From: an uncultured Lachnospiraceae bacterium
Lineage (GTDB): Bacteria > Bacillota > Clostridia > Lachnospirales > Lachnospiraceae
Direction of reading: 5' to 3'
Length of the DNA stretch: 64,000 bases
Assembly (NCBI GenBank): GCA_902801515.1
Contig: CADCII010000014.1
Location: forward strand, 1 to 64,000
Each line of letters begins with the position of its first letter. Within the stretch, counting starts at the first letter, position 1. The notes below the pieces were generated by a model that worked only from the letters and a program-made list of their open reading frames with translations, was not told where the DNA came from and did not search any database. The position numbers were made by a program, and so were the translations under genes. Shown here one piece after another: positions 16,619-51,528 of this stretch.

Positions 16619-17086
16619 ATGTTTGATCAGTTTCTGATACGTAAGGATTCCCTGGAAAATGTTACAGAGAACGGGCGTGTCACCGGATTTAAGTTTGCGG
16701 TGCGTATCGCAGATTACCGGGGATGTTTCCTCTCTCTGCACAATGGGTATTACCTGACAGTAGACGGCGTTGAATATCCCAATGAACTGCAGAAGTTCCA
16801 GATTAACGGGAAAGAGCCGCGTACCTATGAGGAACTGAAGACCTGCTGCTGGGAACACTGGGACTATGACGACGAAGGCTTTGTCTATGTTCAGAAAGAG
16901 GGCGGCCTTGAAAGCGGAGTACACCATATCGGCATCCAGCAGTCGATCCTGGCACAGTATGGTTATATGCCATGGGACGAAGAGTGGGTCCTGCACCCGC
17001 CTGTTCCCGGAAGCGGCCAGGGCGCGGGCAAGACGGAGACGGTCAGTTTCTTCGACATTGCCCTGTCTGAGGGAGGTAATGAGTAA
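16619..17086 (+). CDS. C-glycoside deglycosidase beta subunit-like protein (DUF6379/CGDB), copy 1
   Basis: 155 residues, a small beta-sandwich-type protein. It has the family features GFKFAVRIADYRG, VDGVEYPNE, INGKEPRTYEEL and a GGLESGVHHI segment. In characterised gut and soil enzymes (DfgAB, DgpBC, CarBC) the small subunit joins a TIM-barrel subunit to split the C-C bond between a 3-oxo-sugar and its aromatic aglycone. This copy has about 20 extra C-terminal residues compared with copies 2 and 3. Its TAA overlaps the ATG of the alpha subunit (TAATG), indicating coupled translation at equal amounts. The actual substrate is unknown. Confidence 0.85.
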   Translation: MFDQFLIRKDSLENVTENGRVTGFKFAVRIADYRGCFLSLHNGYYLTVDGVEYPNELQKFQINGKEPRTYEELKTCCWEHWDYDDEGFVYVQKEGGLESGVHHIGIQQSILAQYGYMPWDEEWVLHPPVPGSGQGAGKTETVSFFDIALSEGGNE

Positions 17087-18138
17087 TGGCGATCAAAAGA
17101 GGAGTTTCCCTGTACAGTTATCAGCAGTCCCAGTTCTTTAAAAAGCTGGACTGGAAGGCCCAGATCCGTGAGGTTCGCGAGGGACTTGGCACTGACGGGA
17201 TCGAGATCATCAATGAACAGTTGATCCGGCATTATCCGTTCCCGACTGAAGAGTTCCTGTATGACTGGCGCAGCTATATGGCACGCTACAATATGCAGGC
17301 GGTGACGATGGATGTCTATCTGGACGTGCATCAGTTCCGCGATCATGTAATGACTCACCGTGAAGCGGCTGAACATCTGAAAAATGATATCCGGCTGGCG
17401 GCAAAGATGGGATTCCAGAATATCAGGACACTGGTGCTGGTTCCGATCGATGTGATCGAGGCGGTACTGCCCACGGCAGAGAAGTATAATGTTAAGATCG
17501 GCAAAGAGATCCACGCCCCGTGGCCGATTAAGCCCGGCAACTTTGTCCAGCCGAAAAAGGGTATGGCTGCGGGAATCAATTTCCGCGCTGTGGATGAGAT
17601 CGTGGAACTGCGTGAGAGGACAGGCAGCAGATACGTCGGACTGGTACCGGATTTCGGTATCTTCCAGCATTCTCCATCTGATGTGGCAATTGCCTATGTC
17701 AAGAGACATGCGAAGAAGCCGGAGGCCGTTGACTGGATCCTGGAAAATGCTCCGGCATACGGACATGATGAACTGATCGACGCAGTTGATGAAAAGTTCC
17801 CGGATCACGGGATCCCGATCAACAACATCGACCGTATGGCGCTCCACAAACCGTGCTGCGCTCCTGAGGATCTGATCGATATCATTCCGTATATAGTAAG
17901 CATCCACGGCAAGTTCTATAATATGACAGAGATTCCGGGAAAACCTGGCTGTTATGAGGACAAATGTATTGATTACGAGACGCCGGTCAGATATCTTCGC
18001 CAGCATGGTTTCGATGGCTATATCAATTCGGAATTCGAGGGTCAGAGGGACCAGCAGGATATGGGCGAAGAAGGCCTGGTCGATGAAGTAGAACAGGTCC
18101 GCAGACATCATGAGATGCTGAAGAGACTTCTCGGGTGA
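17086..18138 (+). CDS. C-glycoside deglycosidase alpha subunit-like TIM-barrel protein, copy 1
   Basis: 350 residues of the sugar phosphate isomerase/epimerase (xylose-isomerase-like) superfamily. Metal-ligand candidates are Glu141 and His143 (KEIHAP), Asp189 (VPDFG), His274 (SIHGKF) and Glu316 (NSEFEG). All are conserved in copies 2 and 3, as expected for a Mn-dependent lyase. His143 is the probable catalytic base by analogy. Its start overlaps the beta stop by one base. Similar folds also act as plain sugar isomerases, but adjacency to a DUF6379 gene favours the CGD role. It needs a 3-oxo substrate, and no Gfo/Idh/MocA-type oxidase gene is present in this operon. Confidence 0.85.
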   Translation: MAIKRGVSLYSYQQSQFFKKLDWKAQIREVREGLGTDGIEIINEQLIRHYPFPTEEFLYDWRSYMARYNMQAVTMDVYLDVHQFRDHVMTHREAAEHLKNDIRLAAKMGFQNIRTLVLVPIDVIEAVLPTAEKYNVKIGKEIHAPWPIKPGNFVQPKKGMAAGINFRAVDEIVELRERTGSRYVGLVPDFGIFQHSPSDVAIAYVKRHAKKPEAVDWILENAPAYGHDELIDAVDEKFPDHGIPINNIDRMALHKPCCAPEDLIDIIPYIVSIHGKFYNMTEIPGKPGCYEDKCIDYETPVRYLRQHGFDGYINSEFEGQRDQQDMGEEGLVDEVEQVRRHHEMLKRLLG

Positions 18139-18142
18139 GTGT

Positions 18143-18778
18143 ATGTTTCAATATGACAATCCCTTTTTTCAGGGAGTGAGAAAACTTCTGGGACTGATCG
18201 TACTGTGTGCGGTATTTCTGGTCTGCTGCCTGCCGGTGTTTACGGCGGGGGCGTCTTTCGCCGCACTCTATGACGCAGTAGAGAAGAATATGAAGCATGA
18301 CAGAGGATATCCTGCCCAGGAATTCTGGGCAGGGTTCCGGACAAACTTCAAAAAGGCGACACTGTGTTTTCTGGTGATCCTGGCTGCGGCAGCCATCTGC
18401 GTGGCAGACCTGAGGGTTCTTCAGGTACTCGCTCAGGCAGGGAAAGTGCCGGCGGGGGTTTCATTTTTCTTCTATGTGCTTCTGATACTGATCGCAGTGT
18501 GGGCCGTCTGGGTGCTTGCGCAGTGCGTGCGGTTTGAGAATACGACAGGTGCCCTGCTGAAAAACGGGCTTGTCCTGATGCTGTTTCATTTACCGTCTTC
18601 TCTGGGTATCCTTGGGATCCTTGCCGCAGGCGTAATGATCATATATCTGCTGCCTGTGACGATACTGGTCATGCCGGGTGTCATGGTCTGGTTCATCACG
18701 ATGCTGACCGAGAAAGTGTTCCGGTCTCATATGACGCCGGAGCAGAGACAGCAGTATGATGAGACAAACCGGTTCTGA
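18143..18778 (+). CDS. YesL/DUF624 family membrane protein
   Basis: 211 residues with about five hydrophobic helices and the typical start MFQYDNPFFQGVRKLLGLIVL. DUF624 proteins are common in operons of LplABC-type sugar importers, but their role is not established; a helper of the transporter is likely. The ATG lies 4 bp after the CGD alpha stop. Confidence 0.88.
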   Translation: MFQYDNPFFQGVRKLLGLIVLCAVFLVCCLPVFTAGASFAALYDAVEKNMKHDRGYPAQEFWAGFRTNFKKATLCFLVILAAAAICVADLRVLQVLAQAGKVPAGVSFFFYVLLILIAVWAVWVLAQCVRFENTTGALLKNGLVLMLFHLPSSLGILGILAAGVMIIYLLPVTILVMPGVMVWFITMLTEKVFRSHMTPEQRQQYDETNRF

Positions 18779-18797
18779 CAATGTCCGGGGGGAGAAG

Positions 18798-19445
18798 ATG
18801 GAACGACTGACTTTCAGACAGAAACTGAGATGGTTTGCGGACTATTACCTTTTCAAGGTTATCCTGATCACGGCAGGAGCAGTGCTTGCGTTTATCCTGC
18901 TGAAACTGGTCATGTTTCCGGGAAGTGTTCCGGAGGCTCAGATCCTGGTCATATCGAAAGTCAGGGGAGACTATTCGGCGGTGGAGAATCTGCTGTCGGA
19001 GAAAATGGGATATCCGGAATCGGATCATGCGGTCCATATCGAATACATGGAGGAGAAAACAGCGTTTTCCGGAACGGTCCTGGGCATGAAGCTCTCTTCC
19101 GGTGAGTTCGACGCAGTCATATCGGAGAGAGAATATTATCATTTTTTCGAAAACTCCGGACTGCTTGCAGATCTGGAGAAAGTGTCCGGAGGAAAAATTT
19201 CGGATCTTCCGGAGGACAGGCTGATCCGCTGCGAAGGCGGACAGGCTGACACGGAATCTTCTGATGCGGGGGAAGAAGTAATCCCCGGCGCAGTACAGCC
19301 GGATTCCTATATCTCAGGGATCAGTCTGGAAGGAAATGAGTTGTATTCTGTATGTACGGAGTATATGGAGGATCCTGTTCTGGGGATCATTCAGTCAACC
19401 GATGATATGGAAGAGGAGAAAGTGATCCTGGAGTGCGCATACTGA
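18798..19445 (+). CDS. Single-pass membrane protein of unknown function, paralogue of the one at 1056
   Basis: 215 residues. A short basic N-terminus (MERLTFRQKLRWFADYYLFK) precedes one helix (about 20-45), then an acidic soluble domain. An in-frame ATG lies at 18756, inside the DUF624 gene, but the GGGGGGAG at 18787-18794 supports ATG 18798. It resembles the housekeeping-region protein at 1056 in the pre-helix segment and overall layout. Within a sugar-import operon it may accompany YesL. No catalytic residues can be named. Confidence 0.8.
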   Translation: MERLTFRQKLRWFADYYLFKVILITAGAVLAFILLKLVMFPGSVPEAQILVISKVRGDYSAVENLLSEKMGYPESDHAVHIEYMEEKTAFSGTVLGMKLSSGEFDAVISEREYYHFFENSGLLADLEKVSGGKISDLPEDRLIRCEGGQADTESSDAGEEVIPGAVQPDSYISGISLEGNELYSVCTEYMEDPVLGIIQSTDDMEEEKVILECAY

Positions 19446-19494
19446 AGGAGAAACTTTCCCTGATATACAGTAAGAAGTTTTTAGGAGGTACGTT

Positions 19495-20373
19495 ATGAAA
19501 GTACTTGGCATCTCCATGGGGAGAAAGAACGAGCGTTGCGACATCTATTGCAAACAGGTACTGATGGGCGTGGAAGCTGCGGCAAAGGCTTCCGGAAAAG
19601 ACATCGAAGTAGAGTTCATCAACACAGTAACCATGGATATCGGACAGTGCCGCGGCTGCGGAGCCTGCAGCAAGGCGCCGGACGGCAAGATCAAATGTAT
19701 CCTGAAGGATGATTACTTGGAACTGGAAGAGAAGGTTCTGGATGCAGACGGCATTATAATTGCAGCACCAGTCTATTCCGTAGGCATCGTCGGACAGCTG
19801 AAGAATTTCCTGGATCGTTTCGGAGCGGCTCATGACAGAGCTTCCATGATTGACGAACAGAATAAGCGCAGAGAAGACGGACGTCCTCTCCTGGATGAGA
19901 GATATTTCAAGGACCGCTACTGCAGTTATGTTGCGGTAGGCGGCGCATGGACTGAAGACTGGACCTGCCTGGGTCTTCCGATGATGCATCTGTTCAGCTG
20001 CTCGCAGACCATGAAGGTTGTCGGACAGATCAATGCCAATGACCAGGGCCGCAAGACCAGCCCGTTCCTGGATGGCAAAGAGGGAACATGTCCGGTATGC
20101 CATCTGAATCTTCTGATGGTGAACGGAACGGATACCGTGACCTGCCCGGTCTGCGGAATCCACGGGAAGATCACTCTGGCCGACGGAAAACTGAAGGTGA
20201 ACTTCCCGCCGGAACAGGTAAAGCGTGCGCGTAATACCATCAACGGTGTGAACGAGCACCATGCCGAGATCGGTGAGATGATGCGCATCTGTATTCCGAT
20301 CCTGCAGGAGAAGAAGGAATTCCTTGCAGAGAAGAAGAAAGAATATATGGCTTACAAACCAAAGTGGTCATAA
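19495..20373 (+). CDS. Iron-sulfur flavoprotein with C-terminal zinc ribbon, copy 1
   Basis: The N-terminal flavodoxin-like domain (MKVLGISMGRKNERCDIYC; APVYSVGIVGQLKNF) belongs to the NADPH-dependent FMN reductase/Isf group. Cys52, Cys55, Cys58 and Cys68 (CRGCGAC then C) form an Isf-like 4Fe-4S motif. A zinc ribbon follows at Cys199, Cys202, Cys217 and Cys220 (CPVC twice), which is not part of typical Isf. By inference it moves electrons to a small organic acceptor, perhaps a quinone or aromatic aglycone. It is the last gene of the importer/CGD operon, after AGGAGGT. The paralogue at 48990 also lies next to a CGD pair. Confidence 0.85.
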   Translation: MKVLGISMGRKNERCDIYCKQVLMGVEAAAKASGKDIEVEFINTVTMDIGQCRGCGACSKAPDGKIKCILKDDYLELEEKVLDADGIIIAAPVYSVGIVGQLKNFLDRFGAAHDRASMIDEQNKRREDGRPLLDERYFKDRYCSYVAVGGAWTEDWTCLGLPMMHLFSCSQTMKVVGQINANDQGRKTSPFLDGKEGTCPVCHLNLLMVNGTDTVTCPVCGIHGKITLADGKLKVNFPPEQVKRARNTINGVNEHHAEIGEMMRICIPILQEKKEFLAEKKKEYMAYKPKWS

Positions 20374-20446: not shown

Positions 20447-20448
20447 TG

Positions 20449-26227: not shown

Positions 26228-28198
26228 ATGGGAGCAAGATGCTGCGCCGGAAAGCAGAAATATCCGCATTTATTTGAACCGATCAGAATCGGAAATATCA
26301 GACTGAAGAACCGCATCATCGCTGCGCCGACCAGCCCCAGTATGATGACCACAGAGGGACATTTTACTCCGGAGATGATCGCGTATCTTGAAGAGAAGGC
26401 AAAAGGCGGTGCCGCAGTTGTAACCTACGGTGAAGCTATCGTTCATTCCGCGACAGGCAAGTCCCACAACAAACAGCTCCAGCTGGACTCCTTCGGAGTC
26501 AGGGAAGGCCTTGCGATCGCGACCCGGAAGATCCATAACGCAGGTGCCTATGCCAACATTCAGCTGTCACACGGCGGAAAATGGGGCGGACTTGCCAGCG
26601 TTGGCGGAACCGTCGGTGCCAAGACCGAAGCCTGGGGCGTCAGCGATGAAGATCTTCCGCAGGGCCACGTGAAAGAGATGCCGAAGGAAATGATCCTTGA
26701 GATCGTGGAATCCTATGGCGCGGCTGCAAAGCTCTGCCAGGAGTGCGGATTTGACATGGTTCAGGTTCATGCAGCCCATGGATGGCTGTTCTCCCAGTTC
26801 CTCTCTCCTGTGGAGAATAAGAGGACGGATGAGTTTGGCGGAAGCCTGGAGAACCGTGCAAGGTTCCTGATGATGTCCCTGGATGCTGTCCGCAAGGCAG
26901 TAGGTCCCAGATTCCCGATTGAATGCCGCATCTCCGGTGACGACCTCACGGATGTAGGCCTGGATATGGACGGCTGCGTGGAAGTCGCGAAGCTGATCGA
27001 GGACAAGGTAGACTTGTTCCAGGTATCCTGCGGCAACCATGAAGATCCGGCGATGTTCTGCCGTACGCACCCGAATGCATTCTTCCCCAGAGGCGTCAAT
27101 GTGTATCTTGCCGCCAATATCAAGAAGAATGTCAGTAAACCCGTTGCCTGTGTCGGATCCCTCAATGATCCGAAGCAGATGGAAGAGATCATCGCAACCG
27201 GTCAGGCGGATATCGTAGAGATCGCCCGCGGTCTGGTAGCGGATCCGTATATCCCATACAAAGCCCTGCACGATCAGGCAGACGACATCACGCCATGTCT
27301 TCGCTGCTATGAGTGTTTCGCAGAAACTGTGAGACAGGAGTCAGTGAAATGTTCTGTCAATCCGACCATGGGACAGCAGCTGGATGCCAAGGCCGGGATC
27401 CCTGCAGCGAAGGAAGTCAAGAGAGTACTGATCGCCGGCGGCGGTCCTGCAGGCATGGAAGCAGCCATCACACTGGCTAAGAGAGGACATGACGTCACAC
27501 TGGTCGAGAAGAACGATGAGCTCGGCGGCAATCTGGCGCCGGCAGGAGCAGCGTTCTTCAAGGAAGATATCCGCAAACTGCGCGTTACCCTCTCAAACCG
27601 TCTTCTGAAGTCTGGCGCGAAAGTTGTGATGAATACGGAAGTGACTCCGGAGTATGTGAAGCAGTTTGATCCGGACACCCTGATCGTAGCGATCGGCTCC
27701 AATGAGCTCCGTCCGCCCATCAAGGGTATGGACCTTCCTCATGTAGTCATGGCAATCGATGCAGAACTGCATCCCGAGAAGCTTGGAAAACGCGTCGCGA
27801 TCATGGGCGGCGGCCTGGTCGGCGGAGAAGCTGCGATCGGTTTCCACCATGAAGGCCATGAGGTCTCGATCATCGAGATGAAGCCGGAAGTTGCCATGGA
27901 AGTGAATTCCTTCTACCGCGGCGGTCTGATGCCGCAGATCGAGAAGGCAGCGACCAGCTACGTTAATACAAAGGTGCTGGAGATCGTTCCGGAAGGCGTG
28001 AAAGTCGAGAAGGATGGCGAGCAGTTTGTGATCGAAGCAGATTCTGTGGTATGCGCACTCGGATTCCGCGCGCCTTACGCAGCAGTCGACGCACTGTGCG
28101 ATGAGGTGGATGAATCCTACATCATCGGTGACTGCCGCAATGTCGGTCAGATCCACCATGCGATCAACCAGGGTTATTACACAGCGCTTCTGGTATAA
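26228..28198 (+). CDS. Old-yellow-enzyme family 2,4-dienoyl-CoA/enoate reductase-like flavoenzyme
   Basis: 656 residues in the DCR/enoate-reductase layout. An FMN barrel covers 1-350. A 4Fe-4S site has Cys357, Cys360, Cys363 and Cys375. FAD- and NAD-binding domains follow (GGGPAGMEAAITLAKRGHD; MGGGLVGGEAAIG). The family reduces activated C=C bonds, including gut reductases of flavonoids, isoflavones and bile-acid intermediates. In the barrel the usual HGYL motif, with the proton-donating Tyr of DCR, reads HGWLF (Trp186), so substrate or mechanism may differ. The His in the SCGNHEDP stretch is kept. It is the last gene of the operator-B operon. Confidence 0.9.
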   Translation: MGARCCAGKQKYPHLFEPIRIGNIRLKNRIIAAPTSPSMMTTEGHFTPEMIAYLEEKAKGGAAVVTYGEAIVHSATGKSHNKQLQLDSFGVREGLAIATRKIHNAGAYANIQLSHGGKWGGLASVGGTVGAKTEAWGVSDEDLPQGHVKEMPKEMILEIVESYGAAAKLCQECGFDMVQVHAAHGWLFSQFLSPVENKRTDEFGGSLENRARFLMMSLDAVRKAVGPRFPIECRISGDDLTDVGLDMDGCVEVAKLIEDKVDLFQVSCGNHEDPAMFCRTHPNAFFPRGVNVYLAANIKKNVSKPVACVGSLNDPKQMEEIIATGQADIVEIARGLVADPYIPYKALHDQADDITPCLRCYECFAETVRQESVKCSVNPTMGQQLDAKAGIPAAKEVKRVLIAGGGPAGMEAAITLAKRGHDVTLVEKNDELGGNLAPAGAAFFKEDIRKLRVTLSNRLLKSGAKVVMNTEVTPEYVKQFDPDTLIVAIGSNELRPPIKGMDLPHVVMAIDAELHPEKLGKRVAIMGGGLVGGEAAIGFHHEGHEVSIIEMKPEVAMEVNSFYRGGLMPQIEKAATSYVNTKVLEIVPEGVKVEKDGEQFVIEADSVVCALGFRAPYAAVDALCDEVDESYIIGDCRNVGQIHHAINQGYYTALLV

Positions 28199-34132: not shown

Positions 34133-35575
34133 ATGATGAGAGAGATGAACTGCGATCTCGCGGTGGTGGCGTGCGGCGCCGGAGGAACTGCTGCATGCGC
34201 ACAGGCGGCGCAGATGGGGCTGAAAGTCATCGGCATAGAAAAAGGCAAGAAGACAGGCGGAGCCGCCAATGGCGGAATGGGCCCTCTCGGTATCAACACG
34301 GATGTCCAGAAGAGAGATCTGAATTCCATCAGCGTGGAAGACGCGTTCCGGATGTTCATGGACTACACCCACTGGAGAGTGGACGCAAACCTGGTCAAAA
34401 AGTATTTCCGCAAGTCTTCCGAGACGATCCGGTGGCTGGAAGATATGGGTGTTGAGTTCTACAAAGCAGCACGTTATTTCCCCGGATCCGAGGCAACCTG
34501 GCACATCGTGATGCCGGAGAACCGCAAACCCGGACCTGGCTGTGCAGGAACCATGATAAAGATCATGACGCAGTATGCCCAGGAACATGGGGCACAGTTT
34601 CTGCTGCAGACTTCTGCGCAGCATCTGCTGATGGAAGACGGACGTGTATGCGGAGTAACCTGCGTGGATAAGGACGGAGAAGAGATCGTAATCCATGCGA
34701 AGGCTGTGATCATCTCTACCGGCGGTTTCGGCGGCAACAAGGAGCAGGTACTGGAGCGGACAGGCTATACCTATAACAAGGACTTCTTCGGATTCTGCAT
34801 TGCAAATATGCAGGGAGACGGGATCCGGATGGCAAGAGAAGCAGGAGCTGCGAAGACGGAAGAGTCCATGGAGCTGGTAGTATCTCCGGGTGGAGCGCTG
34901 AAAGAGTCAGTGCGCGCTGCATTTCATCAGCCGAATCTTCTGGTCAATTATCAGGGCGAGAGATTCTTCAACGAAGAATTCTTTGAGAACAGCACATTTG
35001 CAGCCAATGCCTGCAACCTGCAGCAGGGGCGCTGCGGAATAATGGTCATCGATGACGCGATCCGTGATCTGTATGAAAATGAAGGCGTGGACGTCTCGAG
35101 CTATGTCCTGAACCGGACGGATGCGAAGGGTTTCACGGAAGACTTTGAGAAGGCGCTTGCCTCGAATCCTTACGTCGCGAAGGCGGATACGCTGGAGGAA
35201 CTGGCGCAGAAGATGGGGATCGATGTCCGGACATTTGTACAGACCGTAGAGACCTACAATCACTACTGCGACTCCAGGGACGAACAGTTCGGGAAACGGC
35301 CGGATTATCTCAAACCAATCCGGAAAGCTCCGTTCTATGCCTGCAAGTTCTTCCCGGGTGCCTACGGGACTCTGGGCGGCATTAAGATCAACCACAAAAC
35401 CGAGGTGATCAACGAAGAGTTCAGACCCATTCCCGGACTGTATGCGGCAGGGACAGATACCTGCACGATCTACGGAGACAGTTATATGTTCAAGCTGCCG
35501 GGCAATTCCATGGGATACTCTGTGAATACCGGCAGGATGGCAGCGGAGAGCGCGGCCTCCTACATCCGGGAATAA
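34133..35575 (+). CDS. FAD-dependent fumarate-reductase-like flavoprotein, copy 1
   Basis: 480 residues of the FAD_binding_2 family, which includes fumarate, urocanate and cinnamate reductases and ketosteroid dehydrogenases. The FAD-binding N-terminus is VVACGAGGTAACAQAAQMG, followed by the conserved GGAANGGMGPLGIN block also found in the copy at 60486. A C-terminal FAD contact is PGNSMGYSVNTGR. No heme or covalent-FMN domain and no signal peptide are seen, so it is a cytoplasmic enzyme that needs a separate electron donor. It may reduce an unsaturated acid, or act as the missing sugar oxidase. It is co-transcribed with the kinase. ATG 34136 is an alternative start. Confidence 0.9.
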   Translation: MMREMNCDLAVVACGAGGTAACAQAAQMGLKVIGIEKGKKTGGAANGGMGPLGINTDVQKRDLNSISVEDAFRMFMDYTHWRVDANLVKKYFRKSSETIRWLEDMGVEFYKAARYFPGSEATWHIVMPENRKPGPGCAGTMIKIMTQYAQEHGAQFLLQTSAQHLLMEDGRVCGVTCVDKDGEEIVIHAKAVIISTGGFGGNKEQVLERTGYTYNKDFFGFCIANMQGDGIRMAREAGAAKTEESMELVVSPGGALKESVRAAFHQPNLLVNYQGERFFNEEFFENSTFAANACNLQQGRCGIMVIDDAIRDLYENEGVDVSSYVLNRTDAKGFTEDFEKALASNPYVAKADTLEELAQKMGIDVRTFVQTVETYNHYCDSRDEQFGKRPDYLKPIRKAPFYACKFFPGAYGTLGGIKINHKTEVINEEFRPIPGLYAAGTDTCTIYGDSYMFKLPGNSMGYSVNTGRMAAESAASYIRE

Positions 35576-35590
35576 TTATTCGGATTTTTT
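35564..35590 (+). terminator. Terminator overlapping the end of the FAD reductase gene
   Basis: ATCC plus GAATAA (35564-35576, with a 2-nt bulge) pairs with TTATTC plus GGAT, followed by six T residues. The stop codon (35573-35575) lies inside the stem. Confidence 0.75.
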
Positions 35591-35819: not shown

Positions 35820-36251
35820 ATGGCATTTGCAATGAAGATGAACTTTGTGGATGTGGTCTGTGACGACTCACTGAAACATTACTATGCAGGCGGACGCAGG
35901 ATGGGTTATCAGTTTGAGATCCGGCTGGGATATTACAGAGGTCATTTTCTGTCTGTTATCGATGAATTCGCGGTCACTGTCGACGGGCAGGAAGTACCGA
36001 ATGAATCGGTTAAGTTCTGCATCAACGGGAAAGAATTCAGCCCCAATGAATTTGACAAGTGCTATACAGAATTCTGGCAGATCATCGAGCCGGCTGTGAT
36101 CCGGGTATTCTGCCCCGGGGGCCTGGCAGAAGGCGAGCATACCATCGATGTAAAGCTGATGTTCCGCTCTCCCTATATGGCGATCGGACCGGATCACGCA
36201 TATATGCCTGTTGACAGCAGTGGAAGCAAGACACTGACCATCACGGATTAA
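35820..36251 (+). CDS. C-glycoside deglycosidase beta subunit-like protein (DUF6379/CGDB), copy 2
   Basis: 143 residues from ATG 35820, which follows AGGAGGAG; the GTG at 35796 has no ribosome site. Family segments: GYQFEIRLGYYRGHFLS, VDGQEVPNE, INGKEFSPNEF and PGGLAEGEHTIDVKLM. It differs from copies 1 and 3 at the N-terminus (MAFAMKMNFVDVV) and has a longer C-terminal strand region. It is encoded 13 bp upstream of its alpha partner. By family knowledge it joins the TIM-barrel subunit to form the lyase acting on 3-oxo-C-glycosides. Sequence differences from the other copies suggest another aglycone. Confidence 0.83.
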   Translation: MAFAMKMNFVDVVCDDSLKHYYAGGRRMGYQFEIRLGYYRGHFLSVIDEFAVTVDGQEVPNESVKFCINGKEFSPNEFDKCYTEFWQIIEPAVIRVFCPGGLAEGEHTIDVKLMFRSPYMAIGPDHAYMPVDSSGSKTLTITD

Positions 36252-36264
36252 GGAGGGGAAGATC

Positions 36265-37251
36265 ATGGCAGACATCAAAGCCGGCATTACTTTATTTTCA
36301 CTGGGAACTGCCTACCTGAAGGGTGAACTCGACCTGGAAGGCGTGATCCGCACGGCGGCTGAAATGGGAGCGGAAGGTTATGAGATCGTAGCATCCCAGA
36401 TGATCCCATCCTATCCCTATGTATCTGATGAATTTGTGGAATTCATCAATGAGATGGAGAAGAAGTACGGCATCCGTCCTGTATGCTACTCCGCACAGTG
36501 CGACAGGGGAATGCTGAAGGACCGCGATCTCACGGAAGATGAGATGGTCTCCAGAGCGATCACGGACATTATATCTGCAAATAAACTTGGCTGCACGGTT
36601 ATGCGTGAACAGTTTCTGCTAGGACCGAACGGATTGAAGCGCCTTGCTCCCTACGCGGAGGCTTATAATGTCCGTGTGGGTATCGAGATCCACAATCCGG
36701 ACAGCCCTGTGACCCCAATCATGATGGAGTACCGGAAAGTGATCGAAGAGTCCGGGAGTAAATATATCGGATTCATCGTGGACTTCGGATGCTTCGCGAC
36801 GAAGCCCAACAAACCTTACTGGGACCGTGCGCTCGAGGCAGGCGTTCCTGAGGAGATCCTTCAGAAAGCGGCTTCCCTTCGCTATGACAATGTACCGCAG
36901 GAAGAGGCATTCTCCATCATGGGACCGTATCTTGGACAGTATCCGGCACTGGGCGGTACGCTCAGCAGCATGTACGGTTTTGTCCAGTTCAGAAAGAGCA
37001 TTGAGAAAGAACTGCAGGGTTTCAGGGAGATCATGCCCTACTGCTTCGAGATGCACGGCAAGTGCCACTATGTGGACGAGAATCTGCATGAAGTATCGAT
37101 TCCTTATGAAGAGATCATTCCGGTTATCGCACAGACAGACTTTGACGGCTTCATCGTGACCGAGTATGAGGATGAAGGCGGATACGGATGCATTGAACAG
37201 ACCTCCCGCCATGTGGCAATGATGAAAAAGATCATTGAGGAATGTAAGTGA
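36265..37251 (+). CDS. C-glycoside deglycosidase alpha subunit-like TIM-barrel protein, copy 2
   Basis: 328 residues, 22 fewer than copies 1 and 3. The metal and catalytic residue pattern is kept: Glu141 and His143 (IEIHNP), Asp173 (IVDFG), His264 (EMHGKC) and Glu300 (VTEYED). The loop between about 174 and 215 is rich in Pro/Lys/Trp and unlike the others, which points to a different aglycone pocket. The start follows AGGAGGGG. Its TGA overlaps the GTG start of the MATE pump, so deglycosidase and exporter are translated together. Confidence 0.85.
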   Translation: MADIKAGITLFSLGTAYLKGELDLEGVIRTAAEMGAEGYEIVASQMIPSYPYVSDEFVEFINEMEKKYGIRPVCYSAQCDRGMLKDRDLTEDEMVSRAITDIISANKLGCTVMREQFLLGPNGLKRLAPYAEAYNVRVGIEIHNPDSPVTPIMMEYRKVIEESGSKYIGFIVDFGCFATKPNKPYWDRALEAGVPEEILQKAASLRYDNVPQEEAFSIMGPYLGQYPALGGTLSSMYGFVQFRKSIEKELQGFREIMPYCFEMHGKCHYVDENLHEVSIPYEEIIPVIAQTDFDGFIVTEYEDEGGYGCIEQTSRHVAMMKKIIEECK

Positions 37252-38636
37252 AAAGTAATACGGGATTTGGAAAAAAGAGACAGACAGGAACGAATATGAC
37301 CGAGGGAAACGCCTTCGGTCTTATTCTGCGTTTTGCGGTTCCTCTGTTTATAGGGAATATCTTTCAGCAGGTTTACAACATGGTCGACTCGGTCGTGGTC
37401 GGCAGGTTTGTCAGCAGTGACGCTCTTGCTGCAGTAGGCTGCGGTGCATCGCCCTTTGGATTCTTTATGACTCTGATCCAGGGGTTCACGGTGGCGGCGT
37501 CCGTGCTGATCTCCCAGGCTTATGGAGCGGGGAATAAGAAACAGCTGCGGCAGGCTTATGTGACGTCTTCCGCGATCACCCTGGCAGCGGGAATCCTGCT
37601 GACCGTAATCGGCACCCTGATCGCAAGACCGCTTCTTATCCTTCTTAAGACGCCGCCGAATGTCCTGGACCAGTCTGTAATCTATCTGAGGACGGTCTGC
37701 ATGGGACTGCTTGCTACCTGCCTCTACAACACCATGGCGTCGTGCCTGCGGGCGGTCGGCAACTCCGTGATCCCGCTGTATGCACTGATTTTTACCAGCC
37801 TGATGAATGTAGCACTCGATCTGCTGTTCGTGATCTCATTTGGCATGGGAGTGTTCGGAGTCGCGCTTGCAACAGTCCTGTCCCAGCTGGTTTCAGGAGT
37901 GCTCTGTCTGGTCTATGCGATGAAGTATTTCCCGGAGTTTTCTCTGCTGAATATCGCCGGATCACTTCACAGACAGATGGCTGCGGAAGTGATGCGCATC
38001 GGAATGCCGTCTTCACTGCAGAGCTCCATCGTATCGATCTCTGCCATGTGCATGCAGAGGGCAGTGAATTCCTATGGATCTACAGTCACCGCCGGGTACA
38101 CCATAGGAAACCGGACAGATCAGCTGTTTTTCTGTCTGTCTTTTGCAATCGGACTGGCGGTGGGAACCTTTGCCGGGCAAAACGCCGGAGCCGGAAACTA
38201 TGACCGGGTGCGTGAGGGTGTAAAGAAGGGATTCCTGATCAGCACAGTCTATACACTGGCTACTGCAGCGATCCTGATCCCGTTTGCGCCGCAGATCTGC
38301 CGGATATTTACAACAGACACAACTGTAATAAACATTGCAGTACCATACTGCAGGCTCATGTCTGCCTTCGCACCGATGCTTGGCATGGTCTTTATCTATC
38401 AGAACGTTCTTCGCAGCTGCTCGGATATCGCACCGACAGTTTGGATGAGCATCACCGAAGTGACATCCAGAGCAATCCTTCCTTTTGTATTCTCCGCTCT
38501 CTGGGGTTATGCGGGAATCTGGTGGGCGACTCCTGTCGGCTGGACTGCCTCAGTTATCATCGGTTTTCTGAGGTTCAGAAGTGGAAAATGGATGCAGAAG
38601 AGCCGGAAGACTCAGGAAAGACTGGAAGGTGCATAA
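37248..38636 (+). CDS. MATE-family multidrug/aglycone efflux pump, copy 1
   Basis: 462 residues with about twelve helices in two halves. Family segments are VDSVVVGRFVSSDALAAVG and the second-half AGQNAGAGNYDRV. GTG 37248 overlaps the CGD alpha stop (GTGA) and has a TTGAGGA site; ATG 37296 is a weaker alternative that would drop 16 residues. MATE pumps use sodium or proton gradients to export aromatic compounds such as flavonoids. Direct coupling to a deglycosidase suggests it removes the freed aglycone. Confidence 0.92.
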   Translation: MKSNTGFGKKRQTGTNMTEGNAFGLILRFAVPLFIGNIFQQVYNMVDSVVVGRFVSSDALAAVGCGASPFGFFMTLIQGFTVAASVLISQAYGAGNKKQLRQAYVTSSAITLAAGILLTVIGTLIARPLLILLKTPPNVLDQSVIYLRTVCMGLLATCLYNTMASCLRAVGNSVIPLYALIFTSLMNVALDLLFVISFGMGVFGVALATVLSQLVSGVLCLVYAMKYFPEFSLLNIAGSLHRQMAAEVMRIGMPSSLQSSIVSISAMCMQRAVNSYGSTVTAGYTIGNRTDQLFFCLSFAIGLAVGTFAGQNAGAGNYDRVREGVKKGFLISTVYTLATAAILIPFAPQICRIFTTDTTVINIAVPYCRLMSAFAPMLGMVFIYQNVLRSCSDIAPTVWMSITEVTSRAILPFVFSALWGYAGIWWATPVGWTASVIIGFLRFRSGKWMQKSRKTQERLEGA

Positions 38637-38673: not shown

Positions 38674-38708
38674 GCCCCCGGCTCCATAAGAGAGCCGGAG
38701 GCTTTTTC
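38674..38708 (+). terminator. Terminator of the second CGD-MATE operon
   Basis: GCCCCCGGCTC (38674-38684) and GAGCCGGAGGC (38692-38702) pair with one mismatch, followed by five T residues. The convergent hydrolase gene ends at 38711. Confidence 0.85.
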
Positions 38709-41847: not shown

Positions 41848-44502
41848 ATGGCGAATCATATTTTTCCGTTTCTATGGATGCGCGGTGAGGAGGAAAGCAT
41901 ACTGAGGGAAGAACTGTCAAAGATCCGCGAGTGCGGGATCAGCGCAGTATGTGTTGAGGCAAGGCCGCACGATGACTTCTGTGGTCCGGGATGGTGGCAT
42001 GATATGGATATCGTGCTGGATGAAGCGAAGAAGCATGATATGAAGGTCTGGATCCTGGATGACAAGCATTTTCCGACCGGCTACGCAAATGGCGGGATCG
42101 AAAAGCATCCGGAGAGAAAGAAACTTTATCTTGCCTGCTCCACTTCAGATATTTTTGGCAGGAAAGGGAAGCATACTCTTGATATTTCCCGTATGCTGAA
42201 GCCGTCGATCGGTTACTGGGACATCGGCAAACCGGCGGATTACGCTGAGCGGGCGAATAACCGTCTGTACGCGATCCTTGCGCTGCGGTTCACGGAAGGA
42301 GACATATTCTCGGAAGATGTCCTGGATCTGACAGATACGTATGACGGGGAGAGGTTTGCGGATTTTGAACTCCCTGAAGGACAGTGGAGGATACACGTTC
42401 TCTATACGACCAGGACAGACGGCGGAGCCGACAACTATATCAATATGATAGACGCGGAATCTGCCCACACGCAGATCGAAGGCGTCTATGAAGCTCATTT
42501 TGAAAAATACGGTGACCTGTTTGGGTCTGTGATCGCCGGATTCTTCTCCGATGAACCACAGTTTGGCAACATCAGTGCGGTGAACTTCTGGGATACCCAG
42601 ATAGGCCGCTGCCGCATGCAGCTTCCCTGGAGCGCTGAACTGGAAGAAAACCTGCTAAGTCTTTACAAGAGTAAAAATGAGCTGGCAAGATCTCTGCCGT
42701 TCCTGTTCGCGGAATCTTCGGAGCGCCTGATGCGGATGAAGATCCGTCAGGATTATATGGATCAGGTCTCCCTTCTGTATAAGAAGAACTTCAGTGATGC
42801 GATCGGTAAGTGGTGCGAAGAACACCATGTGGAGTACATCGGCCACGTAGTGGAAGACAACGGACTTCATTCCAGGCTGGGCATGGGAGCGGCACATTAT
42901 TTCCGCGCCATGAGCGGACAGCATATGGCTGGCATCGATGACATCGGAGGACAGTACTTCTACGGAGCCGCGAACCTTCAACGGAAGGGCATGACGGATA
43001 CAGACGGGGAATTCTTCCACCATGCACTGGGTAAACTCGGCCCGTCTGAAGGCCATCTTGACCCGAAAAAGAAGGGCCGCACCATGGCGGAACTGTTTGG
43101 TGCGTATGGATGGAGCTTCGGCGTGCGGGATATGAAGTATCTTCTGGAACATTTCCTGGCAAAGGGTGTGAACCATCTGGTGCCTCATGCGTTTTCCATG
43201 GCGGAGTATCCGGACATCGACTGCCCGCCTCATTTCTACGCCAGAGGGAACAATCCGGAATTTCCATACTTTGCGCAGCTTATGAAGTACGCAGAGCGGA
43301 TGTGCACCCTTCTGTCAGACGGACAGCATGTTCCCTCCTGTGCAGTGCTCTATGATGCGGAGGGTGACTGGAACGGTGACAACCTGCCCATGCAGAAGAT
43401 CTGCAGAGTACTGGATGAGAACCAGATCGATTATGATATCGTACCGGTCGATTACCTGGTCCGTCCGGAGCTGATGGCCGGAGAAGTGAAGGACGGGAAA
43501 CTGTATCTGAACGGCATGTGCTTCGAGGCGCTGATCTGCGGATACGCACCTGCCATCCCGCAGGCACTGGCTGATTTTATCAGCTCGAATCCGGAGTTTC
43601 CTGTTTTCTATGTACAGGATCGCCCCTGGAAGGTCATAACGGAGACAGGTGTAAAAGGCCTGAGCCTGGATTCCTGCAGGACAGTCGCTCTGCCTGATCT
43701 GGCAGAGTTCCTGGCAGATACCAGCGCTGCAAAGATTCATATAGAGCGTTCTTCCGATGAACTGACTGTGTACCATTACAGCAAAGACGGACAGATCTTT
43801 GTGCTGCTGAATGAATCCGCCGAGGCACCATACCGTGGACAGGTACTGCTTCCGACGGCAGAGAAACTGTGTGTATACGACGGGTGGACAGACAGGTTCC
43901 TGGAATCGGGCAGCCTGGATGCCACAGTGCATGATACAGCTGACGGCAAAGGATCTGTGACAGAAGTGTCGCTCAGCCTGGCTCCGGGTTCCATGCTGGT
44001 ACTTACAGAGCAGAAGGACAGAGAAACTGACGGCGTCTATGTGCCTTACGAAAGACAGATTGACGGATTGACATGTATCGATCTGTCAGAAGACTGGGAA
44101 GTCAGCAGGGTTAAGGCGAAGGATTATCCTCAGTTTCCGGATCCGGAACATGTTAAGGAACTGGCACCGGTATCGGATACGGATCCGGTGTTCGCTGGTG
44201 TGATCCGGTACGAGAAAACCGTCACACTGGAGAAAACGCCACAGACAGCAGTGCTGCGCGCGGAGAATGTATATGATGTTATGAAACTGACTGTCAACGG
44301 AGTCCAGGTACAGTACTGTCTCGCGCCGCCTTATCAGATCCCTGTGAAAGGACTTCTGACAGCGGGAGAAAACAGGATCTGCATAGAAGTCGCGACAACG
44401 CCGGCGCGTGACCAGCTGTCTCTTCCGCAGCCGCCGTTTGACTTCCAGTATGATGCAATGGATCCCACCGGAATGTTCGGCAAAGTGGGATTGTGGATAT
44501 AG
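41848..44502 (+). CDS. Large glycoside hydrolase-like protein (GH106-like barrel plus jelly-roll end)
   Basis: 884 residues, no signal peptide. The N-terminal barrel (FLWMRGEEESILREELSKI; ARPHDDFCGPGWW; ILDDKHFPTGYANGG) resembles the catalytic part of GH106 alpha-L-rhamnosidase-like and related unclassified glycosidases. Near the C-terminus a galactose-binding-like jelly roll is seen (FAGVIRYEKTVTLEKTP; LTVNGVQV). Acidic candidates occur in GFFSDEPQFGN and GHVVEDNG, but catalytic residues cannot be assigned surely. It is the first gene of an operon with GH43 and GH3, so it probably removes a terminal sugar, possibly rhamnose, from imported glycosides. The family is a guess from partial likeness; that it is a glycosidase is fairly sure. 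Confidence 0.8.
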   Translation: MANHIFPFLWMRGEEESILREELSKIRECGISAVCVEARPHDDFCGPGWWHDMDIVLDEAKKHDMKVWILDDKHFPTGYANGGIEKHPERKKLYLACSTSDIFGRKGKHTLDISRMLKPSIGYWDIGKPADYAERANNRLYAILALRFTEGDIFSEDVLDLTDTYDGERFADFELPEGQWRIHVLYTTRTDGGADNYINMIDAESAHTQIEGVYEAHFEKYGDLFGSVIAGFFSDEPQFGNISAVNFWDTQIGRCRMQLPWSAELEENLLSLYKSKNELARSLPFLFAESSERLMRMKIRQDYMDQVSLLYKKNFSDAIGKWCEEHHVEYIGHVVEDNGLHSRLGMGAAHYFRAMSGQHMAGIDDIGGQYFYGAANLQRKGMTDTDGEFFHHALGKLGPSEGHLDPKKKGRTMAELFGAYGWSFGVRDMKYLLEHFLAKGVNHLVPHAFSMAEYPDIDCPPHFYARGNNPEFPYFAQLMKYAERMCTLLSDGQHVPSCAVLYDAEGDWNGDNLPMQKICRVLDENQIDYDIVPVDYLVRPELMAGEVKDGKLYLNGMCFEALICGYAPAIPQALADFISSNPEFPVFYVQDRPWKVITETGVKGLSLDSCRTVALPDLAEFLADTSAAKIHIERSSDELTVYHYSKDGQIFVLLNESAEAPYRGQVLLPTAEKLCVYDGWTDRFLESGSLDATVHDTADGKGSVTEVSLSLAPGSMLVLTEQKDRETDGVYVPYERQIDGLTCIDLSEDWEVSRVKAKDYPQFPDPEHVKELAPVSDTDPVFAGVIRYEKTVTLEKTPQTAVLRAENVYDVMKLTVNGVQVQYCLAPPYQIPVKGLLTAGENRICIEVATTPARDQLSLPQPPFDFQYDAMDPTGMFGKVGLWI

Positions 44503-48838: not shown

Positions 48839-48890
48839 ATGCTGAAGGGAAAAAGATAAATAATAAGATGTCGGCATATCAGTGTGTTTC

Positions 48891-48896: not shown

Positions 48897-48989
48897 ATAG
48901 ATACGCGTGAGAAGGTTCTGCGTCTGAGCATGCAAGGTGCGTGGAACCATATCTGTTATTTCAGAAGAGAAGATTAAGGAGAAAATGAT

Positions 48990-50015
48990 ATGCTGCATGT
49001 ATTAGGACTTTCATTTGGAAAAAGGAATGCAAACAGTGACATTCTTTGCAAGGAAGCGCTTTACGGTGTAAGAGAAGCATTTCCGGATGCGGAGATCAAG
49101 TTTATCAATACACAGAGGCTGAAGATCGACCGCTGCATCGGCTGCGGGGCATGTTCCGGCGGTCTGGAGCACGGCAAAGACAATAAGTGCGTAGTGAAGG
49201 ATGATTTCCAGATGGTAGAGAACTGGATCCGCTGGGCGGATTCCATCATTCTTGTAGCTCCGGTCTATGCACTGCAGCCGGTCGGACAGTTCAAGAACAT
49301 GGTAGACCGTTATTCCTGCCGTCATGACACCTCTGCCATCAACTGGGTGCTGGATAAGAGACGCACCGGAGAGATGCCGGGCAATCCGGATGATTTCCCG
49401 CAGCAGAGACTGAGAGTGAAGTCTGTCTCCTATGTCTCCGTCGGCGGCGCTACCACCGAGGACTGGACTTCCATGGGAACGGCAACACTTCATATCTTCG
49501 GTTTCCCGACCATGATGAATGTAGTCTCCAACTACAATGCCAACAGCATGGGCACGATCGGCAATCCGTATCTGAAAGAGGAACTGATCGAGCATATGCA
49601 TGAGATCGGAAAGCGCACCGCGCAGGCATACGGCAAGGACAAGTCTGAGATCGAATACTACAATCCGAAGGATGGAGACGGTATCTGCCCGATCTGCCAC
49701 CAGAGACTTCTTACGATCGAGAGAACCGGAACGAATGTAACCTGCCCGATCTGCGGTACGCACGGAACCATCTCAATCGAAGACGGACAGATCAAGGTCA
49801 ACTGGCCGGCGTCCGAGTTCGAGAGAGCAAGAGGCACCTTCAAGGGACTGCGTGAGCACACTACCGAGATCCAGGGCTTCGGAGCTATCTGCGGACCGAA
49901 GATCATGGCAAACAAAGAGATGCTGGATGAGAAGATGGACAGCCGGATCAAGAAGTTTGACGAAGCGATCGGAGCACTGACCAATCAGGAAGCGGATATT
50001 CCGTGGAATGTCTGA
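48990..50015 (+). CDS. Iron-sulfur flavoprotein with C-terminal zinc ribbon, copy 2
   Basis: 341 residues. The flavodoxin-like domain begins MLHVLGLSFGKRNANSDILC. The Isf-type cluster is Cys49, Cys52, Cys55 and Cys67 (CIGCGAC), and the zinc ribbon is Cys233, Cys236, Cys252 and Cys255 (CPIC twice). It is 50 residues longer than the paralogue at 19495, mainly an insertion at about 185-230. As in the first locus it sits next to a CGD pair (55 bp upstream of the beta gene), so the association occurs twice. By inference it is a redox partner or reductase for the CGD substrate or aglycone. Confidence 0.85.
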   Translation: MLHVLGLSFGKRNANSDILCKEALYGVREAFPDAEIKFINTQRLKIDRCIGCGACSGGLEHGKDNKCVVKDDFQMVENWIRWADSIILVAPVYALQPVGQFKNMVDRYSCRHDTSAINWVLDKRRTGEMPGNPDDFPQQRLRVKSVSYVSVGGATTEDWTSMGTATLHIFGFPTMMNVVSNYNANSMGTIGNPYLKEELIEHMHEIGKRTAQAYGKDKSEIEYYNPKDGDGICPICHQRLLTIERTGTNVTCPICGTHGTISIEDGQIKVNWPASEFERARGTFKGLREHTTEIQGFGAICGPKIMANKEMLDEKMDSRIKKFDEAIGALTNQEADIPWNV

Positions 50016-50069
50016 TAATAAAAAAGTATAGAAACTGGAAACGTTATTGATTCTGCACGGAGGATAAGT

Positions 50070-50462
50070 ATGGTACAGAGAGTGATCTATGATCCAAATG
50101 GCTTCAGGAATGTGGAGAAAGACGGGAAGGTAATCGGATACAGCTTCGGTTACAAAGCACAGTATTATCGCGGATTTTCTCCGTCGATTGTACGTGGTGT
50201 GAAGATCACCGTGGACGGAGAGGAGGCTCCTCAGGACGCAATCCTGTTTACGAACAAGGGAGAGACTTTCACCCTTGACGAGCTGACAACGGTAGTGGAT
50301 GCCGACATGCGCTGGGAGTACGGTGAGTATGCAGTGTTCACCGTTCTGAAGGAAGGCGGACTGGCAGCAGGCAAGCATCATCTCGACACTGAGATTACGA
50401 TCTGCCCGTCTTATATGCCTTTCCCGAATGTTGCAGCTACCGGCATTGATTTCGAGATTTGA
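50070..50462 (+). CDS. C-glycoside deglycosidase beta subunit-like protein (DUF6379/CGDB), copy 3
   Basis: 130 residues, the shortest of the three. Segments: GFRNVEKDGKVIGYSFGYKA, YYRGFSPSIVRGVKITVDGE, KEGGLAAGKHHLD and SYMPFPN. Copy 3 has the N-terminal FRNVEKDGKVIGYSF form, which resembles copy 1 (LENVTENGRVTGFKF) rather than copy 2. ATG 50070 follows GGAGGATA. It lies 13 bp before the alpha gene, the same spacing as in copy 2. Confidence 0.84.
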   Translation: MVQRVIYDPNGFRNVEKDGKVIGYSFGYKAQYYRGFSPSIVRGVKITVDGEEAPQDAILFTNKGETFTLDELTTVVDADMRWEYGEYAVFTVLKEGGLAAGKHHLDTEITICPSYMPFPNVAATGIDFEI

Positions 50463-50475
50463 GGAGGAGTGAAGA

Positions 50476-51528
50476 ATGAGCGATATTAAGAGAAGTATCT
50501 CCCTGTACAGCTATCAGGATGAGTATTATGCAGGACTTCTGGATCTTGAAGGATGCCTGAGAGAGACTGCCAAGACCGGCGCGACCGGCGTAGAACTTCT
50601 TGCTGAGCAGATGATCCGCAATTTCCCGAATCCGATCGAGGATGAAGCGTTCCGTGAGAACTGGTTTGCGATGCTGAAAAAGTACGGACTTACACCGTCC
50701 TGCTATGACGCATTCCTGGAGAACAGACTGTTTGCAAACCGTACCCTCAGCCTGACTGAGCAGGTCAACCAGATGAAACGTGATCTTCGCTGCGCGAAGC
50801 TCCTTGGCTTCCCGGTGATCCGTACGCTGGTTTCCACTCCGATGGATGTCATCGAAGGTTCTCTTGAGTATGCTGAGAAGGTCGGCGTCAAGATCGGTAT
50901 CGAAGTCCATGCTCCGTTCTCACTGAACTCCGGATGGGCTGACGGCTATATGGAGATGATCACCCGCACAGGTACGAAGTATTTCGGATTCATTCCGGAT
51001 ATGGGTATCTTCTGCCGGAACGTCCCGGATGTTGTTGCTGACAAGGCAAGACGTATGGGCGCAACTGAAGAGTGCATCAAGATCGTAGACGATGCTTATG
51101 CAAAACGTGTTGCGAACGGATTCACCAAGATCAAATATGATCTGGATCTGGGCAAGGCTAACATGGAATACCGCATGGCTAACGGAATGGGCGAGATGAT
51201 GGATGCAGTCAAGGCAGCAGGCGGCAACCCGGGCGATCTGTGGTATGCGGGCGTATCCTTCACCTACAGCTGGTCTGAACCGCAGGATCTGATCGACAAC
51301 ATCGATTATATCTTCCATACCCACGCTAAGTTCTACAATGTCCATGAGGACTACAAGGAAACAGCGGTTGCGATTCCGGAAGTCGTCGAAGCATACAAGA
51401 AAGCCGGATATGACGGATTCCTGAGCTCCGAGTATGAAGGAGGAGAGCATCTGCGTGACGTAGGCGTTGATTCCATCGAACAGCTGCGCCGTCATCAGGA
51501 AGCCATGAGAAGAGCGATCGAAGGATAA
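50476..51528 (+). CDS. C-glycoside deglycosidase alpha subunit-like TIM-barrel protein, copy 3
   Basis: 350 residues. The metal and catalytic pattern is Glu143 and His145 (IEVHAP), Asp175 (IPDMG), His283 (HTHAKF) and Glu319 (SSEYEG), aligned with copies 1 and 2. The aglycone-side segment around 176-270 differs, containing RNVPDVVADKARRMG and a Tyr/Trp-rich stretch (WYAGVSFTYSW). The start follows GAGGAGGAGTG. A terminator follows at 51610, then a MATE pump gene. Confidence 0.86.
   Translation: MSDIKRSISLYSYQDEYYAGLLDLEGCLRETAKTGATGVELLAEQMIRNFPNPIEDEAFRENWFAMLKKYGLTPSCYDAFLENRLFANRTLSLTEQVNQMKRDLRCAKLLGFPVIRTLVSTPMDVIEGSLEYAEKVGVKIGIEVHAPFSLNSGWADGYMEMITRTGTKYFGFIPDMGIFCRNVPDVVADKARRMGATEECIKIVDDAYAKRVANGFTKIKYDLDLGKANMEYRMANGMGEMMDAVKAAGGNPGDLWYAGVSFTYSWSEPQDLIDNIDYIFHTHAKFYNVHEDYKETAVAIPEVVEAYKKAGYDGFLSSEYEGGEHLRDVGVDSIEQLRRHQEAMRRAIEG

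Follow-up and report, generated by a model that had tools for sequence, protein, structure and literature searches.

The window analysed here, 64 kb of the 65.4-kb contig C14 from the 3.08-Mb genome of an uncultured Lachnospiraceae bacterium (label G000), appears by its sequence matches to be a plant-glycoside island encoding three metal-dependent alpha-beta 3-keto-C-glycoside lyases of the C-glycoside deglycosidase (CGD) family. C-glycosyl flavones are common in grasses and resistant to ordinary glycosidases. We consider it probable that the three pairs cleave such compounds, that the freed flavone is reduced by enzymes of the flavone reductase (FLR) type, which are encoded beside pairs 1 and 3, and that the aglycone is exported. 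What would be new is that CGDs are coupled to FLR and, in a looser way, to flavoproteins resembling the vinylphenol reductase VprA; the CGDs themselves would be new members of a known family.

Identification of the CGD pairs

The beta and alpha genes of pair 1 are located at 16619–17086 and 17086–18138, those of pair 2 at 35820–36251 and 36265–37251, and those of pair 3 at 50070–50462 and 50476–51528, all on the + strand. The beta subunits match PF19906, the Pfam family "C-glycoside deglycosidase beta subunit" (E-values of 2.9e-37, 1.3e-38, and 1.2e-34 for pairs 1, 2, and 3), and the alpha subunits match PF01261, the xylose-isomerase-like TIM barrel (AP_endonuc_2). When the PDB was searched by sequence, solved CGDs ranked first for every alpha and beta subunit of the three pairs: 8qvc was the best solved match of alpha 1 (7.1e-45) and of alpha 3 (1.7e-77), beta 2 is of the PuCGD/DgpB type (9m3a_B, 8.2e-59; DgpB, 6e-52), and alpha 2 is of the PuCGD/DgpC type (9m3a_A, 1.6e-112; 7bvr_A, which is PuCGD, 1.6e-109). 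A fourth pair lies on contig C20 of the same genome; its alpha subunit is 92% identical to DfgA over 260 columns.

All four pairs of the genome share the same active-site set, which consists of the Glu and His of an E-x-H motif, an Asp, the His and Lys of an H-x-K motif, and two late Glu residues. According to the residue roles given for the CGD alpha subunit (PMC8563793), the metal ligands E, D, H, K, and E, the catalytic His, and the supporting Glu are all present in the window alphas. For comparison, alpha-beta pairs were collected from 161 sources; of the 167 pairs obtained, 146 remained once identical alphas, fused genes, and short fragments had been left out. Numbered as in PuCGD, E141 and D173 occur in 146/146 pairs and H263, K265, and E299 in 145, with one gap each; E301 is present in 144 and the catalytic H143 in 143. 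A preliminary description of this DNA had reported the three pairs with their metal pattern, and both the domain matches and the conserved residues bear it out.

An AlphaFold (AF2) model of the pair 1 alpha subunit reached a mean predicted local distance difference test score (pLDDT) of 90.1; four helices predicted at residues 199–251 were taken as a lid. Foldseek returned CGDs for all top 16 hits of this model (E-values of 4.8e-21 or better), and the first plain isomerase, 4ovx, followed at 1.5e-11. A tree of alpha subunits was computed from 67 rows, namely 60 of the 146 pairs chosen at 80% identity and seven solved chains, by a quick search with support values from the Shimodaira-Hasegawa-like approximate likelihood ratio test (SH-aLRT). 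In this tree, pair 2 falls into the PuCGD/9m3a clade (support 99) and the fourth pair groups with DfgA, whereas two further supported clades, neither with a solved member, contain pairs 1 and 3. The characterised enzymes MiCGD, AgCGD1, and MtCGD stand outside the tree, and one of them could be a closer relative of pair 1 or pair 3. The preliminary description had held that clustering with plain sugar isomerases would speak against it. This identity was ruled out by the PDB sequence matches, the tree, and the active site for all pairs, and by the predicted fold for the pair 1 alpha subunit. Judged by sequence, all three are real CGD pairs, most likely acting as C-glycosyl flavone lyases. The other alphas of the genome are only 34–37% identical to the pair 3 alpha, and because of this strong divergence the pairs are not recent duplicates. 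As a side observation, six open reading frames (ORFs) of 464–534 amino acids in the collected loci (one each in L033, L119, L120, and L177, two in L135) are hit by the beta profile as well as by the alpha profile and are apparent single-chain beta-alpha fusions like 8qrz.

FLR homologues beside pairs 1 and 3

The substrate assignment is guided by two genes on the + strand. FLR homologue 1 (19495–20373; FMN_red, PF03358) belongs to the presumed operon of pair 1, and homologue 2 (48990–50015) is the first gene of the presumed operon of pair 3. The product of the latter has a single PDB match at E ≤ 0.01, which is 7d38 (7.2e-37), an entry code that appears in the flavone reductase paper PMC7862272; the former is 39% identical to it. 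Both combine an FMN_red domain with a C-terminal extension, homologue 1 being short of 28 residues between the two parts. Hence the "flavoprotein" of the preliminary description is indeed present, beside pairs 1 and 3, and is described more exactly as two FLR homologues.

In FLR, four pocket residues proved most critical for activity when mutated, namely G106, W149, H271, and I275 (PMC7862272). W149, H271, and I275 are kept in both window homologues, and position 106 is Gly in homologue 1 and Ser in homologue 2. Among 63 FLR-like ORFs of the collected loci, W149 is found in 62, H271 in 58, I275 in 57, and G106 in 46 (Ser in 14). The residues 10, 14, and 15, which contact the phosphate of flavin mononucleotide (FMN), are mostly changed in this set, and S147 is replaced by Ala in 62/63; the S147A mutant of FLR was slightly more active (PMC7862272). 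The same source gives flavones and flavonols as substrates, and neither daidzein nor the anthocyanidins tested were accepted. Because homologues of this enzyme are encoded beside them, pairs 1 and 3 are pointed to flavone C-glycosides, and C-glycosyl flavones are the likeliest substrates of the window CGDs. The genome encodes a third FLR homologue (G000:C20:47997-48902), which is separated from the beta gene of the fourth CGD pair by about 12 kb.

Association of CGD and FLR genes among genomes

The comparison set comprised 397 genomes of the host family, taken as Lachnospiraceae. These genomes are related, and the protein searches scored at most four or five candidates in each; consequently, all counts are lower bounds and p-values are rough. 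CGD beta genes were found in 35/397 genomes, in 34 of them above the cut-off, and FLR homologues (threshold E 1e-25) likewise in 35/397. Both occurred together in 24 genomes, CGD only in 10, FLR only in 11, and neither in 352, which corresponds to an odds ratio of 77 (p = 2e-22) with the one sub-cut-off CGD genome dropped and of 70 if it is kept. Without the host's own genus, the odds ratio was 70 (p = 1e-20). The genes are also close to each other: within CGD genomes, 21/55 scored FLR genes lie at most 10 kb from a CGD gene, where random placement predicts 1.3, and 12 of these 55 lie at most 2.5 kb away (0.39 expected). In the clade of P581a DgpC1, FLR is found within 1.1 kb in 8/10 pairs; among all 146 pairs and with a limit of 6 kb, it is near 21/71 pairs of the pair 3 clade and 4/10 of the pair 1 clade. 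A linkage of FLR and CGD is not stated in the accessible parts of PMC11170127 and PMC8398226, nor was it met in the openly accessible literature that we searched.

A looser association concerns two FAD_binding_2 flavoproteins on the + strand, encoded at 34133–35575 upstream of pair 2 and at 60456–61889. The nearest NCBIfam model of the former is vinylphenol reductase VprA (NF053717), on which the two proteins score 313.5 and 246.9 bits, below the curated cut-off of 600. Gene 34133 is missing from a collinear relative of the same genus. Proteins like that of 60456 (E 1e-60) occur in 34/397 genomes; CGD is present in 23 of these (odds ratio 67), and FLR in 29 (odds ratio 345). Within CGD genomes, 9/32 scored copies lie at most 10 kb from a CGD gene, and homologues are near pair 3-type CGDs in 27/74 loci. 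Pair 3-type loci (e.g. L048, L036, L070) also contain NuoF-like (18/74) and NuoG-like (16/74) genes, in some cases beside the FAD_binding_2 gene; possibly, they feed reduced nicotinamide adenine dinucleotide (NADH) to an ene-reductase.

With respect to the fate of the aglycone, phloretin hydrolase (PF18089) was detected in 28/397 genomes, in 26 above the cut-off. The search that was positive in these 28 gave no PF18089 match in G000, and no BKACE family match was found there either (the control of that search was positive in 1/14); the searches for aglycone-cleaving enzymes covered these two kinds. Degradation of the aglycone to phloroglucinol and on by the host was rejected on these grounds. 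PF18089 shares 16 genomes with FLR (odds ratio 25) and 19 with the VprA-like protein (odds ratio 50). As it goes with CGD and FLR, other genomes possessing both may go on to split the aglycone.

Proposed route and points against it

Based on these findings, the following route is proposed. A C-glycosyl flavone would enter the cell, perhaps via the ABC importer of operon 1, and an unlinked oxidase of the Gfo/Idh/MocA type, encoded on contig C39 or beside the fourth pair on C20, would oxidise the sugar at C3. The metal and His of the alpha subunit, together with Tyr of the beta subunit, would then carry out a beta-elimination that yields the aglycone and 2-hydroxy-3-keto-glucal; a hydratase of some kind would bring the sugar back into use. 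The FLR-type reductases encoded with pairs 1 and 3 would act on the liberated flavone and reduce its C2=C3 bond, so that the flavone serves as an electron sink; the reduced aglycone, not split further, would leave perhaps through the MATE pumps. Cleavage and reduction are proposed on the basis of homology, conserved residues, and linkage; uptake, sugar oxidation, and export are steps that we infer.

As candidates for the 3-oxidase, Gfo/Idh/MocA homologues elsewhere in the genome fit better than a flavin adenine dinucleotide (FAD) or Fe-ADH enzyme of the window, as far as sequences indicate. Gfo/Idh/MocA proteins with 75% identity to that of C39 are encoded in pair 3-type loci (e.g. L025, L027, L048), and homologues at ≥45% identity occur in 39/74 such loci. 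The best solved match of the C39 protein is 9m37, an entry titled P581a DgpA2 with isoorientin. Separately located DgpA genes are also known from Catenibacillus (PMC11170127).

A more far-reaching version is offered tentatively, and we doubt it more than we believe it: CGD, FLR, and a VprA-like FAD_binding_2 enzyme might constitute one anaerobic module of the host family, for which a C-glycosyl flavone is sugar source and electron acceptor at once. The lyase would free the flavone, FLR would reduce C2=C3, and the FAD_binding_2 enzyme would reduce a later double bond; here, without phloretin hydrolase, the aglycone would be exported, and the betas would diversify under a nearly fixed alpha in order to follow the aglycone.

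Several observations weigh against the proposed route. The genomes compared are related, so that Fisher p-values overstate independence. The clade-wise frequency of FLR is limited: in a less biased set, from which a 79-locus neighbour scan biased to pair 3 was left out and in which merging of identical alphas left five pair 3 pairs, FLR was found within 10 kb in 3/9 pair 1, 2/5 pair 3, 3/25 pair 2-like, 1/13 Dfg-like, 0/5 8qvc-like, and 0/2 unplaced pairs. The FLR homologues themselves deviate from the model enzyme. The 48990 protein keeps three of the four key pocket residues, with Ser at G106, and homologue 1 lacks, in frame, 84 bp (28 residues at the end of the flavodoxin-like domain) that are present in G018:C5 and L090; it may be altered or inactive, or an assembly error may be responsible. 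Moreover, FLR homologues can be without apigenin activity, as is the second copy of Flavonifractor plautii (PMC8398226). A Pfam scan of 48 window ORFs gave no Gfo/Idh/MocA 3-oxidase, and 0/10 matches of the genome are on C14; a linked oxidase is present for the fourth pair and absent for the three window pairs. The linkage of importer and MATE genes to CGDs is patchy across relatives: ABC permease genes lie within 6 kb in 6/10 pair 1 loci, and a MATE gene lies within this distance in 6/71 pair 3 and 3/13 pair 2-type relatives (some loci end early in these counts). Given these few cases, the MATE genes argue for export only weakly. PF18089 co-occurs with CGD as well (11/34 CGD genomes, odds ratio 9.7), which means that its absence from G000 is not typical of all genomes with FLR and CGD. 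Finally, CGDs cleave 3-keto-O-glycosides, too (PMC10628242).

Alternative substrates and activities

The last point leads to the alternative that survives best, namely that ordinary plant O-glycosides, in their 3-keto form, are the main substrates of the pairs and that C-cleavage is a side activity. PuCGE accepts 3-keto-phlorizin as well as 3-keto-C-glycosides (PMC10628242), and the island includes GH3, GH43, and esterase genes together with a weak rhamnosidase match, which would fit O-linked material. We nevertheless regard this explanation as rather unlikely, due to the conservation of the beta subunit. In PuCGE, replacing the beta Tyr by Phe abolished the activity on C-glycosides and lowered that on an O-glycoside by only 59% (PMC10628242); the equivalent of this residue, Tyr39, needed for C-glycosides and far less for O-glycosides, is kept in 144/146 pairs, among them all four betas of G000, and the two distant pairs that lost it are also without the catalytic His. 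The alpha subunit of PuCGE alone had about 1.4% O-activity and no C-activity (PMC10628242), yet a beta gene adjoins in 69/74 pair 3-type loci, and of the five loci without one at least four start within 100 bases of a sequence edge. Two PF19906-like pairs, L183_7871 and L184_7641, carry an alpha His to Ala and a beta Tyr to Leu exchange; this coordinated loss perhaps indicates another reaction.

We judge as improbable the system which the preliminary description had envisaged, an import-cleave-export locus for aglycones such as flavones, isoflavones, and anthraquinones, if one class is assigned to each pair. It would agree with the separate clades of the pairs in the alpha tree and with the position of pair 2 in the PuCGD group, which is C8-type and cleaves 3-oxo-puerarin, while the fourth pair resembles DfgAB (EuCGD), which acts on C6-glycosides (PMC8563793); on this basis, the genome may cover both C8 and C6 positions. 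Caution with clade-based substrates is required, however, as C. decagia possesses a DgpBC like that of strain PUE and converts neither puerarin nor aloin (PMC11170127). The FLR neighbours direct two of the pairs to flavones, and the inactivity of FLR on daidzein (PMC7862272) weakens the case for isoflavones; no pointer to anthraquinones was found.

A further alternative, in which one or more of the three pairs lack activity or use different keto-sugars, is very improbable, since, despite the lack of a solved clade member for pairs 1 and 3 and an unusually divergent pair 3 beta, every catalytic and metal residue is kept, pairwise identity among the pair 3 alphas reaches a median of 81% (71 pairs) across many genera, and the island is collinear in a same-genus genome (window positions 19.5 to 60 kb, 72–90% nucleotide identity to one contig). 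The loci nearest to the pair 3 alpha (98 to 94% identical) stem from metagenome-assembled genomes of uncultured Lachnospiraceae and Clostridia, and numerous other relatives are described as originating from the guts of ruminants or other animals. The pair 3 beta of the window shows a median identity of 54.6% to the betas of its clade, and the corresponding value of its alpha is 82.7%. The median pairwise ratio of beta to alpha divergence is 1.84 in the pair 3 clade (71 pairs), compared to 0.83 for pair 1 (10 pairs), 0.88 for pair 2 (4 pairs), and 1.31 for Dfg (13 pairs). This pattern fits a recognition of the aglycone by the beta subunit; faster drift is the alternative.

If the linkage that underlies our preferred reading, cleavage of C-glycosyl flavones coupled to flavone reduction, is functional, gut and rumen bacteria would couple the breakage of a C-C glycosidic bond to the reduction of a pigment core. 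Two CGD clades that lack a solved member would thereby gain presumptive natural substrates, and a genomic partner would be provided for FLR, an enzyme with an electron transfer chain that "remains to be explored" (PMC7862272). For enzyme work, one organism would offer lyases of four clades.

Gene neighbourhood and copy number

Intergenic gaps suggest three operons, whose genes are on the + strand. Presumed operon 1 (12640–20373) begins with the solute-binding protein of an ABC importer (12640–14190; SBP_bac_1 and DUF3502 by Pfam), followed by two permeases (14340–15686 and 15701–16603, both PF00528), beta 1, alpha 1, a DUF624 protein (18143–18778, PF04854), a protein without Pfam match that is included because of its spacing (18756–19445), and FLR homologue 1. 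In presumed operon 2 (35820–38636), the gene of a MATE transporter (37248–38636) overlaps alpha 2 by 4 nucleotides. Presumed operon 3 (48990–53136) consists of FLR homologue 2, beta 3, alpha 3, and a second MATE gene (51754–53136), which starts 225 nucleotides after alpha 3. The gene order asserted in the preliminary description is therefore correct, including the MATE gene after pair 3 and the second permease 15 nucleotides upstream of beta 1; the co-transcription of pair 1 with the importer and the translational coupling of pair 2 to its MATE gene are suggested by spacing. The role of the MATE proteins as exporters has become less certain by the counts given above.

Terminator-like sites were located upstream of presumed operon 1 (12380–12404), ahead of pair 2 (hairpin at 35564–35585, +), after the pair 2 MATE gene (38678–38698), and after the pair 3 MATE gene (53155–53180). 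Their number exceeded that of shuffled sequences in the first region (15 versus 6.9) and hardly in the second (17 versus 15.2), which makes the hairpin before pair 2 a weak indicator; promoter scans of window regions showed no excess above shuffled sequence.

Among the further genes, 26228–28198 (+) encodes an OYE/BaiCD-like ene-reductase, which scores under the curated cut-offs and is possibly a further aglycone reductase. A sequence match marks 53920–55287 (+) as a likely carboxylesterase gene and displaces the antisense ORF 53881–55104. The 884-residue product of 41848–44502 has no Pfam match and a weak likeness to alpha-L-rhamnosidases; its gene precedes GH43 and GH3 genes, and it perhaps trims O-linked sugars. 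Three AraC-type regulators fused to a GH39-like domain surround the island (9950–12334, 55288–57678, 57681–60086). In the loci L059 and L063, one apparent operon unites two solute-binding proteins, two permeases, a pair 3-type CGD, a 349-residue protein, a pair 1-type CGD, and a Gfo/Idh/MocA-like protein.

The capacity of the locus had been called unusually broad. At least four CGD copies are present in 5/397 genomes (11, 8, 6, 6, and the 4 of G000), and C. scindens and C. decagia possess four and six DgpBC sets (PMC11170127); multiplicity is therefore uncommon, not new. The genome with 11 beta genes is G123. G165 has 8, four of them on contig G165:C69 (15.9 to 36.4 kb). The density of three pairs per 35 kb is no record, as one genome of the family packs four within 35 kb.

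Comparison with known systems

PuCGD, or DgpABC, of the puerarin-degrading Dorea strain PUE is, along with 9m3a, closest to pair 2 in both subunits and has the same active-site residues; in contrast to that system, no DgpA-type gene was found in the window, and pair 2 is followed by a MATE gene. The entries of strains P581a (DgpB1C1, 9m3b; DgpA2, 9m37) and W974-1 (DgpB2C2, 9m3a), for which we found no publication, include the closest solved relatives of the C39 oxidase (9m37) and of pair 2 (9m3a), whereas pairs 1 and 3 are outside the clades of both 9m3b and 9m3a. The EuCGD system DfgABCDE of Eubacterium cellulosolvens corresponds to the fourth pair, which is adjoined by AP_endonuc_2 and Gfo/Idh/MocA genes on C20; this DfgA-like pair is on another contig than the window, and pairs 1 to 3 belong to other clades. 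A similar inventory is that of Catenibacillus scindens and C. decagia, with multiple DgpBC sets, a separately located DgpA, and FLR; both encode phloretin hydrolase (PMC11170127), which was not found in G000. Finally, the FLR of F. plautii (7d38; PMC7862272) shares W149, H271, and I275 with the 48990 protein, of which it is the only PDB match; the FMN phosphate residues 10, 14, and 15 differ, G106 is Ser, S147 is Ala, and here the homologues are encoded together with CGDs.

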